9,498 nucleotides of DNA from Acidobacteriota bacterium. Its GTDB lineage: Bacteria; Acidobacteriota; Terriglobia; Terriglobales; Acidobacteriaceae. Shown one piece after another: positions 521 to 9,408 of this stretch (position 1 is its first letter; the number at the start of each line of letters is the position of its first letter). The translations under genes and the position numbers were made by a program. The notes beneath the pieces were generated by a model. The model was not told where the DNA came from, ran no database searches, and saw nothing but the letters and a program-made list of their open reading frames with translations. The stretch lies in assembly GCA_021793595.1 (NCBI GenBank), contig JAJYSL010000168.1, positions 1 to 9,498 on the forward strand, in the 5' to 3' direction.

Positions 521-1657
521 TTATTTCTGCGTTGAGAAAATATATTCTGTGATGCTATGAAATGTCTCGCCGGGTTTGAGTTCGGTCGACGGAAATGCTG
601 GGTGGTTTGGAGAATCCGGGAAATGCTGCGTTTCCAAACATAACGCGGCGCGTTTCTCATAGACATGGCCATGTTTCCCATGAGCCGTGCCGTCGAGGAA
701 ATTTCCAGAATAAAACTGCACCCCAGGTTGCGTCGTTTTGACAGTCAATACGCGGCCGCTCTTCGGATCCATGACCTGGGCCGCCTCATGCAGGGCAGAT
801 CCCTTTGACGCATCGTTCAGCACAAAGTTCTGATCGTACCCTTTGGCAAATTTCAATTGTTTATTATCCTGATCGATCCGCTTTCCAATCACCGTGGGTG
901 TACGAAAATCGAATGGCGTCCCCGCAACCGGCGCCAATTCGCCGGTTGGAATCAATCCGGCATTCACCGACGTGTAGTGATCCGCCGGGATGGTCATCAC
1001 CTCGTCGAGGATGTTCCCATGGCCTTCTCCGGCCAAATTGAAATAGCTGTGATTGGTCAGGTTCAGCACGGTGTCGGCGTCGGTGGTCGCGGAGTATTCG
1101 ATTTTCAAGGCATGTGCGCTTAGCGTATATCGAACGTGAGTCGTCAATGTTCCTGGATATCCCTGATCCCCATTTTTGCTGACGAGAGTCATTTCCACCC
1201 CATTTGGAATCTCATGGGCCGTCCACACTCGCTTGTCGAATCCGACGGTTCCGCCGTGGAGGCTGTTCTCGCCGTCATTCTTTGGCACTTCATACCGCTT
1301 GCCATCCAGAACAAATGTGCCATGTCCGATGCGGTTGCCGTAGCGTCCTACAATCGCGCCAAAGTATGTTTTGGGGTCACCCAGGTAGCCGGCAAGGGAG
1401 TCATAGCCTAGTACCACATCGGCGACTTTACCGTTGCGATCCGGAACATCGAGCGAGACCAGACGGGCGCCGTAGGTCATGACCCGGGCCGTTAAGTCGC
1501 CTTCGTGTAGCGTGAATATTTCAATTGTTGTTCCGTCTGGCATGGTGCCGAAGACTGACTTCTTAACCTCCGCCTGCATACACAACCCCTCGAGACCAAG
1601 AATGCACAACAAGCAAATATACGCGAATGCTCTGCGCCTTACGGTAACAACGTTCAT
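521..1657 (-). CDS. galM: Aldose 1-epimerase (galactose mutarotase family), predicted exported
   Basis: The 378-residue protein interconverts alpha and beta anomers of aldoses. Family landmarks are in order and at proper spacing: GRYGNRI (104-110, substrate Arg109), ENSLHGG with His134, TNHSYFNLAG with the presumed catalytic acid His203, KGYDQNFVL with Asp275, and LETQHFPDSPNHP with the presumed catalytic base Glu342. About 29 N-terminal residues precede the enzyme: an RRR n-region, a hydrophobic stretch (AFAYICLLCIL), and a possible signal peptidase I site after MQA. This suggests a periplasmic enzyme rather than the cytoplasmic Leloir one. The ATG at 1657 is supported by AGGGAG at 1664-1669 with 6-nt spacing. 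Only 10 bp separate it from the upstream arabinofuranosidase, so the two are probably one transcript. The in vivo substrate may be arabinose, xylose or galactose. Confidence 0.93.
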   Translation of the reverse strand: MNVVTVRRRAFAYICLLCILGLEGLCMQAEVKKSVFGTMPDGTTIEIFTLHEGDLTARVMTYGARLVSLDVPDRNGKVADVVLGYDSLAGYLGDPKTYFGAIVGRYGNRIGHGTFVLDGKRYEVPKNDGENSLHGGTVGFDKRVWTAHEIPNGVEMTLVSKNGDQGYPGTLTTHVRYTLSAHALKIEYSATTDADTVLNLTNHSYFNLAGEGHGNILDEVMTIPADHYTSVNAGLIPTGELAPVAGTPFDFRTPTVIGKRIDQDNKQLKFAKGYDQNFVLNDASKGSALHEAAQVMDPKSGRVLTVKTTQPGVQFYSGNFLDGTAHGKHGHVYEKRAALCLETQHFPDSPNHPAFPSTELKPGETFHSITEYIFSTQK

Positions 1658-1663
1658 TACACA

Positions 1664-1670
1664 CTCCCTA
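1664..1670 (-). promoter_or_regulatory. Ribosome binding site of the mutarotase overlapping the upstream stop codon
   Basis: On the minus strand the sequence reads TAGGGAG followed by TGTGTA and the ATG. The TAG (1670-1668) ends the arabinofuranosidase gene, and the purine-rich AGGGAG (1669-1664) shares its last two bases. A ribosome finishing the first gene therefore stands on the Shine-Dalgarno of the second, which suggests translational coupling. Confidence 0.7.
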
Positions 1671-3596
1671 TTGCAGCGTTATATCGACGACCTGAATCGA
1701 GTACGGTGGAAAGGTGTGGCGCCAATCGGAGGAAACGTCACTGATCTCACTTTGGACCGGGACCATTCGTGTGGGGTCCGCAAGTGAGTTGGTTTCCTCA
1801 GTCGAATGCCCGCTGAGCGTCGTCAATGCGGCGGCTCCCGTGGGTCTGTTTTTGCCGGTCAGCTGAATCTCGAGCGACTGCGCCTTGGACGAGGCATTGA
1901 CCACCTTCACGTACAGCATTCGATTCGACGCGTCCCTGGTGACAGAAGTGAACAGCAGCGGAGGCGCGCCCTTCAATGAGGATGCGGGCACTTTGTTGCC
2001 GACGTGGCTGCTGAACATCACTTGGACATAATAGCTGGGCGAACCGTAACTGTGCAGCGCGTCGTAGCCGATCAAATCCGGAACCCACTGCGACGCCCCG
2101 GGATTAACGTTGACAAATAATGGTGCATAGCTGGCCATGATCACGATGTCGCTATTACGTTCCAGGCCCGTCAGCCAAGCGGCATCCGCCAAAGCGGCTC
2201 CCATATCAGGCGTTGGCGAACCCTCGCGGGTAGCCCACTCTCCGACGAAGATCTTCGGGCCCTTACGATCAGTGTTGTCGTAGTGATGGGTGTCGTCGAA
2301 AAATTCCTGCGCCGTGCGATAGAAATGATCGTCGATCACGTCAGGCATCCGGCTCTTCACCGGAGCGGTTGCGATCACCTGCAGCCTGGGATATGCCTTT
2401 TTAATCGCGTCGTAGAATTGCGCGAACCTGCCATCATAGCTGCCGGATTTGTCGAATTCATCCTCGTTTCCCACTTCGACATAAGTCAGAGGAAAAGGAG
2501 CCGGATGCCCGTCCTTCGCCCGCACGGCTCCCCATGTTGTCTCGGGGCCGCCGCTGACGTATTGAATTTCCTCCAGCGCGCTCTGGACGTACGGCGCAAG
2601 CTCCGGACCCGGTGTCACATGCTCCTGTCCCATGGAGTAGCCGGCATATACGGCCAGCACCGGCTGCATGTGCAGGTCCTGACACCATTCCAGAAATTCC
2701 AGCAGTCCCAGTCCGTCGGAGCTGTGATAGCCCCAAGGGCTGGGATGCGTGGGCCGATCGACCAGTGGGCCAAGAGTCTCCTTCCAGGGATACCGGTCGG
2801 CAATGTGGTTGCCTTCCAAATAGTTTCCGCCGGGAAGGCGCAGGAACGCCGGATGCATGGCCGCGAGCTTTTCCATCAGGCCGATGCGGTTGCCATTGGG
2901 TGTGTTGTCGTAGGTCGGCGGAAACAGTGAGACAAGGCTGAACCAGACCGTTCCCGGTTGCGCCACCGTCAGAACAAGGTGGTTGCTGGAGGAGGTTGCG
3001 ATTTGTCCGGTTTGCAACGCAACCTTATATTGCTTCCACTCCGCTGTCAGCGAGGGTACACTGGCGCTCGCGACGACGGCGCCCGTACTGTTATTCACCA
3101 CGCTCATTGTTACTGGACCCGATGAATCGTGGTCAGCCTTGGCATAGAAGGAGCCAGCATACGTGGTATTGGGTCGAAGCGGGATACCCCAGTAGCCGTT
3201 GTTTACGATGCCAGCCGCATCGGAATTATCGGCTCGCTGCACCGTCAGTTTCAGACTGCTGGTCAGGGCAGTGCTGGGACCTGTGGACTTGTCGATCTTC
3301 ATCGACGCGCGCACATTTCCCTCCCGCAAAATTCGCCAGTGGTCGGGGTGATTCGGATTGTCTTGAAAGGCGCGGTTGCGGATCAGCTCCGCATAAATTC
3401 CCCCGTCATAGGAATGATTGATTTCCTCGGTCATCAATCCATACAGGGTTGGACTGACGTTTGCGACAGATGTGTCCGTCTGGATTTTCATCACGGCTCC
3501 CGCGCTCTGGGTCGCCGGCTGTTGCGCGAGCAACAACGGTACCAACGTCGCGATACCGAAGATGGTTCCCCCCAGGCGGTGAATCGATCCAATCAT
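1668..3596 (-). CDS. Exported GH51 alpha-L-arabinofuranosidase with inserted CBM4/9-like domain
   Basis: The 642-residue protein should hydrolyse terminal alpha-L-arabinofuranosyl residues from arabinoxylan, arabinan or similar polymers. An N-terminal signal (about 1-25, hydrophobic TIFGIATLVPLLLA) predicts export. The family start VSPTLYGLMTEEINHSYDGG lies at 48-67, followed by a beta-rich stretch (about 80-225) resembling a CBM4/9 carbohydrate-binding module. The (beta/alpha)8 core begins near FLRLPGGNYLEG (251-262). Likely catalytic residues are the acid/base Glu378 in VEVGNEDEF and the nucleophile Glu453 in FVGEWATREG. A C-terminal beta domain ends in YSIQVVDITLQ. The layout matches the eukaryote-like GH51 subgroup. 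An in-frame ATG at 3614 would add six residues, but the best Shine-Dalgarno lies inside those codons, so 3596 is preferred. It is the first gene of an operon with the mutarotase. Confidence 0.9.
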   Translation of the reverse strand: MIGSIHRLGGTIFGIATLVPLLLAQQPATQSAGAVMKIQTDTSVANVSPTLYGLMTEEINHSYDGGIYAELIRNRAFQDNPNHPDHWRILREGNVRASMKIDKSTGPSTALTSSLKLTVQRADNSDAAGIVNNGYWGIPLRPNTTYAGSFYAKADHDSSGPVTMSVVNNSTGAVVASASVPSLTAEWKQYKVALQTGQIATSSSNHLVLTVAQPGTVWFSLVSLFPPTYDNTPNGNRIGLMEKLAAMHPAFLRLPGGNYLEGNHIADRYPWKETLGPLVDRPTHPSPWGYHSSDGLGLLEFLEWCQDLHMQPVLAVYAGYSMGQEHVTPGPELAPYVQSALEEIQYVSGGPETTWGAVRAKDGHPAPFPLTYVEVGNEDEFDKSGSYDGRFAQFYDAIKKAYPRLQVIATAPVKSRMPDVIDDHFYRTAQEFFDDTHHYDNTDRKGPKIFVGEWATREGSPTPDMGAALADAAWLTGLERNSDIVIMASYAPLFVNVNPGASQWVPDLIGYDALHSYGSPSYYVQVMFSSHVGNKVPASSLKGAPPLLFTSVTRDASNRMLYVKVVNASSKAQSLEIQLTGKNRPTGAAALTTLSGHSTEETNSLADPTRMVPVQSEISDVSSDWRHTFPPYSIQVVDITLQ

Positions 3597-3602
3597 GGCA
3601 CA

Positions 3603-3608
3603 TCCTCC
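3603..3608 (-). promoter_or_regulatory. Shine-Dalgarno GGAGGA that fixes the arabinofuranosidase start
   Basis: The minus strand reads GGAGGA, then TGTGCC, then ATG at 3596. The motif is nearly the full anti-16S complement at 6-nt spacing. It lies within codons 3-4 of the longer alternative frame starting at 3614, which therefore is unlikely to be the initiation site. Confidence 0.75.
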
Positions 3609-4031
3609 ATTCACAAAGTCAATCCATGCGTTTCACAAAACTTCGGCGTCTCAAGAAACTGCGGCGCAGGGAACGTTCGGCCACGCATTCTCCTATCCTT
3701 GCCACTGTATCGAGAACTGGCGAGGGATGCGAACCGGCTCGACGGGCCGCATTGAGTTCTGCGGTGTGGAACTGCAGTGAGCGCCGATCTGCGTGCCTGA
3801 ACCCACAAAGGTGACCAATGGCTGCGGCGAGATCGTACCAATCCTCTCATTTCGTTAATGTTCTGCCTGTCATTCGTCGATAGTCAGGACATAGGCGGAT
3901 GGAGTCTTTGAGTTGCGGCTGAACGGACTGCACTTGTTCCCAGAGATAGCCGAATTTGCGGCGTTGTCCAGCGCAGACGGTCAAAATGCGATTCAAGAAA
4001 AGTAGACCAGGCTGGTGAGAAAACAGGGTAT
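3609..4031. other. Divergent intergenic region between the sugar operon and the chemosensory cluster; no gene recognised
   Basis: These roughly 420 bases separate the leftward arabinofuranosidase operon from the rightward che genes, so promoters in both directions are expected here. Short open frames exist on both strands, but none has a good ribosome binding site or a recognisable sequence. I found no convincing sigma-70 or sigma-28 promoter, no long palindrome and no RNA gene. A weak TTGTCC (about 3964) with TGCGAT 17 bases later is the nearest thing to a + strand promoter and is not annotated as one. Confidence 0.5.
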
Positions 4032-4041
4032 GGAAGAAGCG

Positions 4042-4572
4042 ATGAACGGACCGAGCACGGAAGATTTGTATGAGGCGATCTGTCGAGCGACAGAGCAGGT
4101 ATTTGCCACCATGCTGAATATGGAGATCGAGCCCGGTGCGCCGATCTTCGAGCATGACTACACCGGGCGCTTTGACGGGGTGGTTTCCTTTGTCGGCATG
4201 GCGGGCGAATGGCTGGGAACCGGCGGCCTTTCCTGTGACGCAGTGTTTGCCCGTCGGATTGCGGGCTCCTTTTTGATGATGGACTTTCCCACCGTCGACG
4301 ATGATGTGTTGGACGCCATCGGCGAACTGACCAACATCATCATCGGCAACGTAAAAGGAACCATAGAGCAATCCGTCGGCCCGATGGCGTTAAGCACTCC
4401 CACCTGCATTGTGGGACATGATCTGACAGCTCGTTCGCTAGGCCGGAACCGCTGGACGGTCATCCGCTTCCGCTGCGGGGAAGACAAACTGGACGTGATG
4501 ATGTATCTGATTCCACGAAGTCCATTCGACCGGGAGGTGGAGAGCCGTCGGCGGATGATGGTCGGTTCATAA
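4042..4572 (+). CDS. cheX: CheX-type chemotaxis phosphatase-domain protein
   Basis: The 176-residue protein matches the CheC/CheX/FliY fold. CheX is known to dephosphorylate CheY-P in the cytoplasm. The hallmark E-x2-N motif is in DAIGELTNIIIGNVK (91-105), giving Glu95 and Asn98 as the presumed catalytic pair. The N-terminal helix (LYEAICRATEQVFATMLNME) and the following GRFDGVVSFVGMAGEWLG strand pair are also typical. Only one E-x2-N motif is seen, as in CheX rather than two-site CheC. The start at 4042 is chosen because GGAAG at 4032-4036 lies 5 nt upstream; in-frame GTG at 4015 and ATG at 4030 would add 9 or 4 residues and have poorer sites. It is first in the che cluster, 103 bp before the response regulator, its likely substrate. 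Confidence 0.8.
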   Translation: MNGPSTEDLYEAICRATEQVFATMLNMEIEPGAPIFEHDYTGRFDGVVSFVGMAGEWLGTGGLSCDAVFARRIAGSFLMMDFPTVDDDVLDAIGELTNIIIGNVKGTIEQSVGPMALSTPTCIVGHDLTARSLGRNRWTVIRFRCGEDKLDVMMYLIPRSPFDREVESRRRMMVGS

Positions 4573-4675
4573 CACGCTGGATCGCAAGTCGCGAATGGGT
4601 GGCATCCGTCGTTTCAAAGTTAGATCGCTTGGGGTTAGTCAAAAGAACTATGAAAGGGAAGCAGGCGCGAATCGT

Positions 4676-5050
4676 ATGTCGAAAGCAATGGTAGTGGACG
4701 ACTCACGCACAATTCGAATCATTCTGACAAAAATGTTGACGGAACTTGGATTCGAAGTCTGTCCGGCGGCCGATGGAAAAGAGGCGCTGCAGGTGGTGGA
4801 GCGCGAACAGGGAAGCTTCTCCGCAATCATGGCGGATTGGAACATGCCGGAGATGACCGGACTGGAACTGGTCAAACATCTGCGTTCCGACCCGCGACTG
4901 AGCGCGGTACCCATCATGATGATCACCACCGAGACGGAAACTCGCCAGGTGTTGGCGGCGCTGGAGGCAGGGGCGAATGAGTACGTGATGAAGCCTTTCA
5001 GCCGGGACATCATCGCCGACAAGCTACGCCTGATGGGAGTTCTGGAGTAG
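4676..5050 (+). CDS. cheY: CheY-type single-domain response regulator
   Basis: The 124-residue receiver domain has no output domain, as in CheY. The key residues are present at CheY spacing: Asp8/Asp9 in VVDDS for Mg2+, phosphoacceptor Asp54 in ADWNMPEMTG, Thr84 in ITTE, Tyr103 and Lys106 in EYVMKPF. DWNMP with Tyr at the position of E. coli Tyr106 is a strong resemblance to chemotaxis CheY rather than a generic receiver. It should accept phosphate from the downstream CheA and lose it through the upstream CheX. The frame extends open to 4595, but the receiver fold begins right at ATG 4676, which follows a modest GCAGGCG purine-rich site (4661-4667). The protein ends exactly at the receiver boundary (LRLMGVLE). 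Confidence 0.88.
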   Translation: MSKAMVVDDSRTIRIILTKMLTELGFEVCPAADGKEALQVVEREQGSFSAIMADWNMPEMTGLELVKHLRSDPRLSAVPIMMITTETETRQVLAALEAGANEYVMKPFSRDIIADKLRLMGVLE

Positions 5051-5185: not shown

Positions 5186-5192
5186 GAAGGAG
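5186..5192 (+). promoter_or_regulatory. Shine-Dalgarno GAAGGAG of cheA
   Basis: GAAGGAG lies 8 nt before ATG 5201. It decides the start against the longer open frame reaching back to 5105, whose extra 32 residues have no HPt character. Confidence 0.75.
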
Positions 5193-5200
5193 AAACATTG

Positions 5201-7615
5201 ATGAACGGCGCGGATGGCATGGACGACATTGTGAAAGAGTTCATTGTCGAAAGCACGGAAAACCTCGATCAATTGGACCGTGACCTGATCAGCCTGGAGA
5301 AGAATCCCACCTCAAAAGAACTTCTGGGCTCCATCTTTCGGGCAGTTCACACCGTGAAAGGAACCACCGGATTCCTGGGCTTTTCAAAATTGGAACAGGT
5401 GGCCCACGCCGGCGAAAGTCTCCTGAGCCGGCTACGCGAAGGCGTCCTGGTGCTGTCTCCTTCAATCATCAGCGGATTGCTGGCCATGGTGGATGCGGTG
5501 CGCACCATGCTGGCCACCATCGAGAAGACTGGGTCGGACGGAGATACGGATTACGCACCGCTGATCCAGTTTCTGACGCAGTTGCAGGCACAGCAGCCTG
5601 ACGACAAAATCCAGGACGGTCAAATGGCGCCCGCGTCTTCATTCTGCGTGGTGGAGCGGGAGCAGTCACAGGACACGATCAAACCGAGCACCTCCGAGGA
5701 GGATGGCGACGATCAATTACCGCTGGGACAAATTCTGGTGGAGAACGATCTTGTGAAGGAAGAGCAACTGGCTAGCGCTCTCGACCAGCAAATGCAAGGC
5801 GATCCGCGAAGGGTTGGGGAGATTCTTGTGTCCTGTGGAGCGGTGCATCCAGAGGATGTACTGGAAGCATTGCAGGCCCAGAATGACGGGGTCACCCCAA
5901 ATCTTTCCAGCAACAACATTCGCGTCGATGTGGGACAGCTGGACAAGCTGATGAACCTGGTGGGGGAACTGGTGTTGGCTCGCAATCAGATTCTGCAATT
6001 CAGTACGACGCAGCAGGACTCAGCCTTCCTGAACACCACGCAGCGTTTGAGCCTGATCACGACGGAGTTGCAGGAAGGCGTGATGAAGACCCGCATGCAG
6101 CCGATCGAAAACGTTTGGGGGAAATTTCCTCGCGTGGTGCGCGATCTGGCTCTCGCCTGCGGCAAGCGGGTACAGGTGGTGATGGAAGGTAAGGACACCG
6201 AGCTCGACAAGACCATTTTGGAGGCCATCAAGGATCCGCTGACCCATTTGATCCGTAACGCGGTCGATCATGGCCTCGAATCCCCGTCGCAGCGCGAAGC
6301 CGCGGGCAAATCGCCCGAGGGACGGCTGTTTTTGCGCGCTTATCACGAGGGAGGGCAGGTCAATATTGAAATCTCCGACGATGGTGGGGGCATCGACCTG
6401 AGCGCTGTGAGAGCGAAAGCTGTGGAACGGGGATTGATTCCGCAGGAACAGGCCACGCGGATGAGCGAGCGCGAGGCGTACCAATTGATTTTTCTGCCGG
6501 GATTTTCCACCGCGCAAAAGGTGACGAATGTATCCGGTCGGGGTGTTGGCATGGACGTCGTCAAGACCAACATCGAAAAAATTGGCGGCACGGTGGACCT
6601 GCAAAGTGCTGCGGGTTCAGGAACGACTGTAAAAATCAAGATCCCGCTGACGCTGGCGATTATTCCTGCGCTAATTGTGACCTGCGGCGGCGAACGCTAT
6701 GCCATCCCGCAGGTGAGCCTGCTGGAGTTGGTGCGGCTGGAAGGCAATGGCGCGCGGCAGGGCATCGAGAGCGTTCATGGCGCTCCGGTCTATCGTTTGC
6801 GCGGCAATCTGCTGTCGCTGGTCTATCTCCATCGCGAACTCCATTTCGATTCCGTCGCCGCCCCTGATTCCCTCCAGAAAGATGTCGTGAACATCGCGGT
6901 GCTGCAGGCAGACGACTGTCAGTTTGGACTGATCGTGGATGAAGTGAACGATACGGAAGAGATCGTGGTGAAGCCGCTGGGAGAGCTGCTAAAAGGTCTT
7001 TCAGTATATACCGGGGCGACAATCATGGGCGACGGGCGAGTGGCCCTGATCCTCGATGTCCTTGGACTGGCGCAGCATGCCGGCGTGATCAGCGAAGTGC
7101 ATCGGCGCAAGCTTTCCGAAGATGCGACACCGGCCGCCGAACGAGCCCAGGAGCGCAAAACCTTGCTGCTGTTCCAGAGCCCGGATGAGGGACGGATGGC
7201 GATTTCTCTCTCCGATGTCACGCGCCTGGAGACCTTTTCACGATCTTCGATCGAGCGCACAGGCGAGCAGCAGGTGGTGCAGTATCGCGGGACCATCCTG
7301 CCGCTGGTGCATGTTTCCCGCATGTTGGAGGAGCGCCGGCTCCTGCCTCGGGGCCCTTCTGCCACCGAGGAGGACAAGGTGCAGGTGATCGTTCACACAC
7401 GCAACCGGCGCAGCGTTGGCCTGGTGGTGGAACGAATCCTCGATATTGTCGAAGACGATCTGGGCACACGGCGACCGTCCAGCCGCGATGGCGTATTGGG
7501 TTCATTCGTGGTCCAGGGTAAAGTCACGGAACTCCTGGATGTAGACGGCGTGATTCGCCAGCAGGATCCCACCTTCTTTGATCCGGAGCAGTTACTCACA
7601 GGAGTTGCATCATGA
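5201..7615 (+). CDS. cheA: Chemotaxis histidine kinase CheA with MshEN-like insert and two CheW-like domains
   Basis: The 804-residue cytoplasmic kinase phosphorylates itself and then CheY. Domains in order: HPt/P1 (about 7-110) with phospho-site His50 in RAVHTVKGTTGFLGF; a short acidic linker; a tandem GspE-N/MshEN-like motif (174-197 and 204-227) where P2 normally lies; P3 dimerisation helices (about 240-300); P4 ATPase with N-box HLIRNAVDHGLES (349-361), G1 SDDGGGID (392-399), F-box FLPGFSTA (431-438) and G2 GRGVGMDVV (446-454); P5 CheW-like (about 482-625); and a second CheW-like domain (about 653-785). All kinase boxes look intact. The extra CheW domain makes it longer than typical CheA of about 650 residues. 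A strong ribosome site before ATG 5201 sets the start. Its last codons overlap cheW by ATGA. Confidence 0.95.
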   Translation: MNGADGMDDIVKEFIVESTENLDQLDRDLISLEKNPTSKELLGSIFRAVHTVKGTTGFLGFSKLEQVAHAGESLLSRLREGVLVLSPSIISGLLAMVDAVRTMLATIEKTGSDGDTDYAPLIQFLTQLQAQQPDDKIQDGQMAPASSFCVVEREQSQDTIKPSTSEEDGDDQLPLGQILVENDLVKEEQLASALDQQMQGDPRRVGEILVSCGAVHPEDVLEALQAQNDGVTPNLSSNNIRVDVGQLDKLMNLVGELVLARNQILQFSTTQQDSAFLNTTQRLSLITTELQEGVMKTRMQPIENVWGKFPRVVRDLALACGKRVQVVMEGKDTELDKTILEAIKDPLTHLIRNAVDHGLESPSQREAAGKSPEGRLFLRAYHEGGQVNIEISDDGGGIDLSAVRAKAVERGLIPQEQATRMSEREAYQLIFLPGFSTAQKVTNVSGRGVGMDVVKTNIEKIGGTVDLQSAAGSGTTVKIKIPLTLAIIPALIVTCGGERYAIPQVSLLELVRLEGNGARQGIESVHGAPVYRLRGNLLSLVYLHRELHFDSVAAPDSLQKDVVNIAVLQADDCQFGLIVDEVNDTEEIVVKPLGELLKGLSVYTGATIMGDGRVALILDVLGLAQHAGVISEVHRRKLSEDATPAAERAQERKTLLLFQSPDEGRMAISLSDVTRLETFSRSSIERTGEQQVVQYRGTILPLVHVSRMLEERRLLPRGPSATEEDKVQVIVHTRNRRSVGLVVERILDIVEDDLGTRRPSSRDGVLGSFVVQGKVTELLDVDGVIRQQDPTFFDPEQLLTGVAS

Positions 7616-8055
7616 GCGATCTACAGCAGTTTGCCACCTTTTTTCTCGGGGACAGTTATTTCGGCGTAGAGGTGGAGCGGGTGCAGGAAATTCTGCGCAG
7701 CCAGGAGATGACTCCGGTTCCACTGTCGTCGCCGGTGATCCGCGGTCTGATCAACCTGCGCGGCCAGATCGTCACCGCCATCGACCTGCGGCGCCGGCTC
7801 GGATTGCCGTCACCCATCGACGGGCAGCCGCTGATGAACGTGGTGGTCCGCAGCTCCGGCGGCAGCGTCAGCCTGCTGGTCGATGACATTGGGGACGTGG
7901 TGGAGGCGGAACAATCGACATTCGAGCGTCCTCCGGACACCCTCGACGGGGATGCCAGAAAGATGATCCGCGGCGTGCACAAGCTGGACGAACGACTCAT
8001 GCATGTGCTCGACACCGAGGAAGTATTGATTGGATTTTTCGAAGGTCAGAGTTAA
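7612..8055 (+). CDS. cheW: Chemotaxis adaptor CheW
   Basis: The 147-residue protein is a single CheW domain linking receptors to CheA in cytoplasmic arrays. It shows the family pattern: FFLGDSYFGVEVERVQEI at the start (10-27), PVIRGLINLRGQIVTAIDLR (41-60) with Arg50 in the NLRG motif at the receptor/kinase interface, LLVDDIGDVVEA (88-99), and the terminal HVLDTEEVL strand-helix. Length and start fit the family. AGGAG at 7600-7604, 7 nt before ATG 7612, lies inside the end of cheA, and the ATG overlaps the cheA TGA as ATGA. This indicates translational coupling and co-stoichiometric expression. A 78-bp gap follows before the receptor gene. Confidence 0.94.
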   Translation: MSDLQQFATFFLGDSYFGVEVERVQEILRSQEMTPVPLSSPVIRGLINLRGQIVTAIDLRRRLGLPSPIDGQPLMNVVVRSSGGSVSLLVDDIGDVVEAEQSTFERPPDTLDGDARKMIRGVHKLDERLMHVLDTEEVLIGFFEGQS

Positions 8056-8133: not shown

Positions 8134-9408
8134 ATGGAAACGATGTTGGAGAAAAGTCAAAAGAATGGCAAGCCGAACGGAGCTTTTGTGCATGTCAAGG
8201 CAGGGAAAAAGTCTTCGCATCTCGGCTTGATGACAGAAGAAGCGGATCTTGCCCAGGAAACCATACGCCTGGCAAGGGCAGCCAAGGAAGGCTGGCTCAG
8301 CGAGCGATTCGATACCAGCATGTTCCAAGGGCGGGATCTGGAGGTCGCAACCGCCCTCAACGAAATGCTGGATGCGATTGTGCTTCCCGTGAACGTGACC
8401 GCCAGCTATGTGCAGGACATTTCCAGGGGAGTGATTCCAACCAAAATTACAGACACGTACAACGGAGATTTCAACGCGATCAAGAACAGCCTGAACGCGT
8501 GCATCGATTCTCTGGGCGGCTTGATCTGCGAAATGAATCGCATGTCGGAAGAACACGATAAAGGCGACATCGACGTGGTCATTCCCGAAGACCACTTCGA
8601 AGGCGCCTATCGCACGATGGCCCACGGCATCAACACCATGGTGCAGGGCCACATTACGGTCAAGAAGAAGGCGATGGCCTGCATTGCAGAGCTTGGATGT
8701 GGCAATCTGGACGCTCCCCTCGACAAGTTTCCCGGCAAGAAAGTATTTATCAACGACACCATTGAGCAACTTCGCACCAATCTCAAGTCTTTGATCCGCG
8801 AAATGAATCGCATGTCGGAGGAGCACGATAAAGGCGACATCGACGTGGTCATTCCCGAAGACCACTTCGGAGGCGCCTATCGCACGATGGCCCACGGCAT
8901 CAACGTCATGGTGCAGGGTCACATCACAGTGAAGAAGAAGGCTATGGCCTGCGTGGCAGAGTTCGGTCGAGGCAACTTCGAAGCAGTCCTGGAAAAGTTC
9001 CCCGGCAAAAAGGCTTTCATCAACGAGACGATTGAGCAGGTTCGTGCCAACCTAAAAGCTCTGATTACCGATGCCAGTGAGTTGTCCAAAGCCGCAGTGG
9101 AAGGAAAACTAACCACCCGCGCCGACGTCGACAAGCATCAGGGTGATTTTCGTAAGATTGTTCAAGGTGTCAATAATACGCTAGACGCGGTGATCGGGCC
9201 GTTAAATGTGGCTGCCGCGTACGTGGATGAGATTTCCAAGGGAACAATTCCGCCCAAGATCTCGGATACCTACAACGGTGATTTCAATACGATCAAGAAC
9301 AATCTAAACGCGTGTATCGACGGCCTCGGTGGACTTGCAGAAGCCAATGAGATTCTGCAGCAAATGGCAGCTAACGATTACACAAGTCGTGTCCAAGGGT
9401 CGTACTAA
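8134..9408 (+). CDS. Soluble poly-HAMP methyl-accepting receptor, N-terminal part ending at an in-frame TAA
   Basis: The 424-residue open frame starts at ATG 8134 with AAGGGG at 8123-8128, 5 nt upstream. It is a chain of HAMP-like helical units. Residues 76-130 and 347-401 are related repeats (38 of 55 identical), each with ISxGxIPxKIxDTYNGDF. Between them lie two 90-residue tandem copies, 130-219 and 220-309 (75 of 90 identical), beginning LIxEMNRMSEEHDKGDID. There is no hydrophobic segment long enough to cross a membrane, so the receptor is predicted cytoplasmic. Such proteins normally end in an MCP signalling hairpin that binds CheW and CheA. That part is missing here because TAA at 9406-9408 stops the frame, although matching receptor sequence continues after it. 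The gene follows cheW, its natural partner. Confidence 0.8.
   Translation: METMLEKSQKNGKPNGAFVHVKAGKKSSHLGLMTEEADLAQETIRLARAAKEGWLSERFDTSMFQGRDLEVATALNEMLDAIVLPVNVTASYVQDISRGVIPTKITDTYNGDFNAIKNSLNACIDSLGGLICEMNRMSEEHDKGDIDVVIPEDHFEGAYRTMAHGINTMVQGHITVKKKAMACIAELGCGNLDAPLDKFPGKKVFINDTIEQLRTNLKSLIREMNRMSEEHDKGDIDVVIPEDHFGGAYRTMAHGINVMVQGHITVKKKAMACVAEFGRGNFEAVLEKFPGKKAFINETIEQVRANLKALITDASELSKAAVEGKLTTRADVDKHQGDFRKIVQGVNNTLDAVIGPLNVAAAYVDEISKGTIPPKISDTYNGDFNTIKNNLNACIDGLGGLAEANEILQQMAANDYTSRVQGSY
8359..8523 (+). repeat. HAMP-type repeat A, first copy
   Basis: Codes for residues 76-130 of the receptor. It aligns without gaps to 9172-9336, sharing 38 of 55 residues including DTYNGDF and LNACID. 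DNA identity is lower than the protein match, so this is an old duplication. Confidence 0.75.
8521..8790 (+). repeat. 270-bp tandem repeat B, first copy
   Basis: Codes for residues 130-219. The following 270 bp are a gap-free second copy. The first 114 bp differ at only 4 positions between copies; the remaining 156 bp differ at about 39. Confidence 0.9.
8791..9060 (+). repeat. 270-bp tandem repeat B, second copy
   Basis: Codes for residues 220-309. Its left part (8791-8904) is almost a base-for-base copy of 8521-8634, including synonymous sites. Its right part has diverged by about one base in four. Confidence 0.9.
9172..9336 (+). repeat. HAMP-type repeat A, second copy
   Basis: Codes for residues 347-401, the partner of 8359-8523. 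It flanks the B repeats on the other side, giving the order A-B-B-spacer HAMP-A'. Confidence 0.75.

Follow-up and report, generated by a model that had tools for sequence, protein, structure and literature searches.

The closest described relatives of the domain considered here are of the MshEN type. MshE of Vibrio cholerae (PDB 5htl) is an ATPase with a four-helix, two-motif fold in which both motifs carry a glycine at position 3 and a glutamine at position 24, and the residues between the motifs are reportedly non-conserved. In T. thermophilus PilF, the tandem domains GSPII-B and GSPII-C stand ahead of a traffic ATPase; both are reported to bind cyclic di-GMP (c-di-GMP; PMC11731258), GSPII-C having a proline at a motif start and GSPII-B lacking both arginines. 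E. coli NfrB carries a C-terminal MshEN domain fused to a glycosyltransferase, which binds c-di-GMP with a Kd of 1.0 µM according to its description (PMC8669469), which also remarks that the MshEN domain seems to be involved in chemotaxis. Wang et al. 2016 (PMC5013675) report that MshEN occurs with CheA and CheX, and the CheA fusion, the same combination as ours, is named once in the main text, a mention that comes without an assay. Here, we describe such a fusion in the chemotaxis kinase CheA of the window, by which we mean the whole 9,498-nucleotide stretch analyzed from contig JAJYSL010000168.1 of an Acidobacteriota bacterium. Judging from the sequence, predicted models, and analogy, we put the probability that this domain binds c-di-GMP and tunes the kinase at roughly 0.58.

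An earlier note on this DNA had implied that the architecture was new. Because Wang et al. already list CheA among the MshEN fusions, the architecture is known, and direct c-di-GMP control of CheA remains a prediction. Our literature searches, whose coverage left out most subscription papers, found no experimental study of an MshEN-CheA. What we add is that this CheA group is spread over several phyla and mostly conserves a GDPR spacer, that one MshEN-CheA is found inside a flagellar operon, and that a related CheA from Nostoc has nothing but a linker at this place.

The tandem-motif domain of CheA

As judged by sequence, profile, and predicted fold, residues 174 to 227 of CheA (window positions 5720 to 5881) are an MshEN_N domain, as the earlier note had suggested. 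We scored 11 key positions per motif, allowing R, K, or L at the first, and found 9 of 11 in motif I and 8 of 11 in motif II. These 17 of 22 positions form the best pair in the whole CheA, and 2000 whole-protein shuffles reached 14 of 22 at most, which bears out the claim of two 24-residue motifs in tandem. The residues singled out in that claim (Pro174, Asp183, Arg204 with VG, and Gln227) and their coordinates were correctly read; motif I thus starts with Pro174 and motif II with Arg204. Motif II departs further from the pattern at positions 11 (Ala) and 17 (Val220). At the leucine positions 2, 17, and 21, motif I has Leu throughout, while motif II has Val, Val, and Leu. The spacing had been called close to that of known MshEN domains, and the spacer is indeed six residues long, but that of MshE itself has five.

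PilF is the best sequence match of the domain. The profile E-value is 2.8e-20, and 13 of the 14 PDB matches found by the profile search at E-values up to 1 are PilB, PilF, or MshE. The predicted models show the four-helix MshEN_N fold, in agreement with the PDB matches, and the structural comparison, of the kind that had been proposed as a check, gave MshE with c-di-GMP (5htl) as the top PDB match (38% identity, 1.0 Å), the Foldseek E-values against PDB being weak. The domain thus shares with MshE the fold and the Gly3 and Gln24 residues of both motifs, but it differs in its host and spacer, in the proline at the start of motif I, in having Val for two leucines, and in its lack of a PF05157 match.

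This last difference concerns the second subdomain (MshEN_C). PF05157 found no match in CheA at E-values up to 10, but in the Omnitrophota GspE discussed below the model covers residues 62 to 146, which we take to be the second subdomain and not the two motifs; we therefore dropped it as a membership test because it is uninformative. Of the profile comparison proposed in the earlier note, then, the expected homology to PilB, PilF, and MshE was found, and the Pfam model had nothing to say on the matter. Sequence and predicted structure alike point to the c-di-GMP-binding subdomain type of the MshE/PilB ATPases, without their alpha/beta second subdomain. We also considered CheA as a DUF4388 (PF14332) protein and rejected this assignment, as the match is weak and under the cut-off (0.0034 for the whole protein, 0.00012 for the piece); we read it as a half-motif common to the CheA domain and the PF14332 model. 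A 635-residue MshEN-positive open reading frame (ORF) of Gemmatimonadota continues, by eye, into DUF4388-like sequence.

The host protein has the domains of a CheA histidine kinase. Pfam places an Hpt domain at residues 10 to 101, followed by domains for dimerisation and ATP hydrolysis (ATPase) and by two stretches resembling CheW. The kinase landmarks are intact (H-box His50, N-box 349, G1 393, G2 446). Thus, the P1 histidine, P3, the N, G1, and G2 boxes of P4, and a CheW-like domain, as expected of a CheA histidine kinase, are all present. The numbering assumes the ATG at 5201 as the start, with AAGGAG at 5188 to 5193; the mechanical ORF begins at GTG 5105 and is 32 residues longer.

The earlier note had described the domain as standing in place of P2, the domain that usually docks CheY. 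As a position, this is right: MshEN occupies the place of P2, and Pfam P2 found no match in CheA at E-values up to 10 (a divergent P2 could be missed by Pfam) and is likewise missing from the Pfam annotations precomputed for the 55 listed proteins. Replacement of an ancestral P2 does not follow from this, because a relative has neither domain. This relative, a plasmid CheA of Nostoc sp. C052, is 45.1% identical over 99% and has CheX/CheY (on the other strand), CheW, a methyl-accepting chemotaxis protein, CheB, and CheR as neighbours; it gave no MshEN match, and its P1 and P3 are joined by a linker only. In a quick tree of 50 rows, 41 with and 9 without MshEN (32 hand-picked from 79 proteins plus 18 CheAs from loci; branch support only from the Shimodaira-Hasegawa-like approximate likelihood ratio test), three changes of MshEN presence are required, and seven long end branches were flagged. 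The tree shows clustering rather than a single clade, and gain is indistinguishable from loss. The plasmid CheA of Microvirga lotononidis (L047, 5992 to 8784) also gave no MshEN match; between its P1 and P3 lie two copies of a repeat of about 33 residues, GTLAxQVLERxLKPGEVSLDELERAFxEAPG.

Ligand contacts and competing explanations

Our main alignment holds 53 rows, the window included (the 55 listed proteins minus the near-copies P0014 and P0055). With primes marking motif II, Gly3, Gln24, Gly3′, Leu21′, and Gln24′ are invariant in all 53, among them the counterparts of four MshE ligand contacts (Gly176, Gln197, Gly206, and Gln227), and Arg1′ is kept in 50. Five of the nine invariant positions fall among the 12 ligand contacts of the 54 positions (p 0.019, which is indicative only, since this very region had served to select the rows). 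P0054, a distant match of the first search, led to a second CheA group of 26 proteins with 23 distinct domains; all 23 keep both glycines and Gln24′, and 22 of them keep Gln24. The earlier note had named the loss of key positions across orthologues as a refuting outcome, and this outcome is absent, since the glycines and glutamines are kept across relatives; the leucines are kept less well.

The departures in motif I need not matter for binding, by analogy with NfrB. Its domain is 41.8% identical to that of CheA, and it differs in a spacer of four residues and in a motif I that ends in Arg at position 24; this motif also starts with Pro and has Gln at position 10, yet NfrB binds c-di-GMP. Position 1 of motif I is in any case free among the 53 CheAs (Pro in 18, a residue other than R, K, or L in 35), and position 10 is Gly in 44 and Asp in one, the window. 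NfrB leaves Val205 and Val220 unsettled, because it keeps the motif II leucines there.

Several observations weigh against c-di-GMP binding. Among nine CheAs taken from loci, both glycines and Gln24′ are present in all nine, but Gln24 in only eight (L019 lacks the first glutamine). The leucine clusters are less conserved, with Val at position 2′ in 43 of 53 rows and at 17′ in 51, and the leucine contact at position 21 is eroded to Ala or Arg in three distant loci. Nor do the root-mean-square deviations from the CheA model help: MshE (1.0 Å), the bound PilF chains (0.8 to 1.9 Å, with one nuclear magnetic resonance model at 7.9), Xanthomonas PilB (1.7 to 1.9 Å), and XpsE (3.3 Å) hardly separate ligand binding from the docking of a protein partner.

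These values bear equally on the main rival, which also counts against ligand binding: MshEN_N could hold a protein partner, whether CheX, an adaptor of the PilZ type, or CheY in the way P2 does, and bind no c-di-GMP. We consider such pure docking unlikely, though it deserves attention. The domain stands at the position of P2, and the 53 rows hardly vary at GDPR (G200, D201, and P202 in 52 each, R203 in 51) or at Pro217, although neither contacts the ligand. This spacer, whose counterpart in MshE is described as non-conserved, is the most unusual feature of the CheA group and could be a surface for docking on the kinase core; the CheAs L017 and L054, found by other means, lack GDPR. Xanthomonas PilB-PilZ complexes are among the fold matches, and that PilB, which is said not to bind c-di-GMP, holds PilZ with its N-terminal domain. 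Docking alone, however, would not obviously demand that both glycines and both glutamines be invariant, and a CheY dock is not essential in Nostoc, because the CheA there has the same gene set and only a linker.

The other explanations seem less probable still. A vestigial or structural module, having lost its ligand through Pro174, Asp183, Val205, and Val220 and acting as a spacer that places P1, is rather improbable; five of the 22 key positions being off consensus, the restriction of Asp183 to the window, and the erosion of leucine contacts in some phyla would fit it, but NfrB, with departures at both of these motif I positions and at its last glutamine, still binds, and the glycine and glutamine contacts persist in both CheA groups. 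We find it very unlikely that a different cyclic dinucleotide, for example 3′,3′-cyclic GMP-AMP (cGAMP), takes the place of c-di-GMP as the ligand: MshE binds cGAMP weakly (KD 3.3e-4 M, PMC5013675), and altered leucines could shift the preference, but both halves retain Gly3, the residue whose backbone recognizes guanine in MshE, and the best-matching structures contain c-di-GMP. Finally, that amphipathic helices should resemble MshEN by chance is scarcely credible; the pattern is short and helical and the Foldseek values are weak, but no shuffle reached the observed score, and the profile E-value and the PDB matches that it brought speak for homology.

Distribution and genomic surroundings

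The earlier note had proposed a survey of CheA proteins for the same architecture, and further cases were indeed found across several phyla. Six loci come from records titled Omnitrophota, Gemmatimonadota, Acidimicrobiia, Actinomycetes, and Planctomycetota, and other proteins of this type are named Acidobacteriaceae, Candidatus Acidiferrum, Deltaproteobacteria, and Desulfobacterales; a plasmid CheA of Pseudomonas sp. HR96 is a more distant member (1.2e-11). The contig scan used the single pattern GDPRR[VI]GEI on contigs that did not include Acidobacteriota and gave 25 stretches, six of them confirmed, which is a lower bound; in these loci (L001 to L006), GDPR is thus present by selection. In 101 Gemmatimonadota genomes, 5 of 76 places with a CheA dimer domain are flanked, in frame, by an MshEN match, as assessed by eye (E-values up to 1e-6 for both domains, with a few genomes with candidates only partly scored). 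MshEN-CheAs are therefore a minority. On other Gemmatimonadota contigs, as well as G016:C12, G054:C75, and G098:C21, we observed by eye an MshEN-positive ORF, often of about 385 residues, some 4.4 to 5 kb from a CheA without an MshEN match of its own, as if MshEN were supplied in trans.

Of nine genomes examined, eight have FlhA-family matches, including one partial match; the exception is an Omnitrophota metagenome-assembled genome, a kind of assembly that is incomplete. In G080, one MshEN-CheA lies inside a flagellar operon, between FliP and a receptor that is followed by CheY, CheR, FliR, FlhB, and FlhA, and a second is accompanied by CheW, a receptor, CheY, CheB, CheR, and CheX, a set like that of the window. 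In G004, the MshEN-CheA is about 12 kb from FlhA, with FliM, FliR, FlhB, CheR, CheY, and receptors nearby. The MshEN-CheA of the Omnitrophota locus is preceded by a GspE with MshEN and PilZ, by a T2SSF protein, and by genes resembling PilM/N/O (for PilO, with a match under the cut-off); in this GspE (L001, 136 to 2328), which stands upstream of the MshEN-CheA cluster, the PilZ domain is C-terminal. GGDEF matches were found in six of six genomes (6 to 18 each), versus 8 of 14 controls.

In the window itself, the plus strand carries a chemotaxis cluster of CheX, CheY, CheA, CheW, and a poly-HAMP receptor-like ORF (Table 1). The cheY-like gene may in reality start further downstream than the first ATG in the mechanical ORF. 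An in-frame TAA at 9406 to 9408 closes the poly-HAMP ORF, but receptor-like sequence continues beyond it in the same frame, which has no further stop before the window ends; this stop may be a sequencing error, the mark of a pseudogene, or the end of a real short form. On the minus strand, positions 521 to 3614 hold, by eye, aldose epimerase-like and alpha-L-arabinofuranosidase-like genes with no relation to motility.

Table 1. Features of the chemotaxis cluster and of CheA in the window (aa, amino acids; pLDDT, predicted local distance difference test)
Feature	Position	Strand	Details
cheX-like gene	4015..4572	+	Pfam CheX 5.7e-18; ELTN motif at ORF aa 104-107
cheY-like single receiver	4595..5050	+	Pfam Response_reg 1e-26, residues 32-144
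cheA	5201..7615	+	P1 (Hpt, His50)-MshEN_N-P3-P4-CheW-like domain-second CheW-like stretch; 804 aa + stop
Linker P1 to MshEN_N	5600..5716	+	aa 134-172; pLDDT <50 in full-length model; low-confidence, presumably flexible
MshEN motif I	5720..5791	+	aa 174-197 PLGQILVENDLVKEEQLASALDQQ; predicted helices 175-181, 187-198
Spacer MQGDPR	5792..5809	+	aa 198-203, 6 residues
MshEN motif II	5810..5881	+	aa 204-227 RVGEILVSCGAVHPEDVLEALQAQ; predicted helices 205-211, 217-229
P3 dimerisation domain	5912..6091	+	aa 238-297; Pfam H-kinase_dim 2e-17; ~10 residues after MshEN_N
cheW	7612..8055	+	Pfam CheW 2.4e-31
Poly-HAMP chemoreceptor-like ORF	8134..9408	+	Pfam HAMP_2 4.2e-64

A possible c-di-GMP input at the kinase

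If the CheA domain binds c-di-GMP as we favour, one molecule would lie between its two halves, as in MshE, whose assignments by Wang et al. 2016 we transfer to CheA. Gly176 and Gly206 would contact the guanine Hoogsteen edges with their backbone amides and Gln197 and Gln227 the ribose and phosphate, with the bases resting on Leu175/Val220/Leu224 and Leu190/Leu194/Val205 and with Arg204 on one base. Because the linker to P1 is long and flexible and only about 10 residues separate the domain from P3, binding would stiffen MshEN_N or change its docking on P3/P4, with the GDPR spacer as a possible contact, and might alter the ease of P1 phosphorylation. The kinase would therefore be the point at which cellular c-di-GMP determines the gain of the CheA-CheY/CheX pathway. 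A broader proposal, which we consider somewhat less likely than not, is that c-di-GMP would be a direct allosteric ligand of CheA in several phyla, that the GDPR spacer would dock on the kinase core with no adaptor, and that the kinase gain would serve flagella in certain bacteria but type IV pili or secretion elsewhere.

PilZ or CheY-like effectors link c-di-GMP to the motor, and a c-di-GMP-binding adaptor reportedly acts on a chemotaxis methyltransferase. The known routes from c-di-GMP to taxis thus act on components other than CheA. Control of CheA by c-di-GMP could be checked on one small soluble domain. If the proposal is true, the conserved spacer would give a concrete hypothesis for the path of the signal to the kinase core, and a c-di-GMP site in CheA would unite the sessile-motile and chemotaxis switches in one protein.
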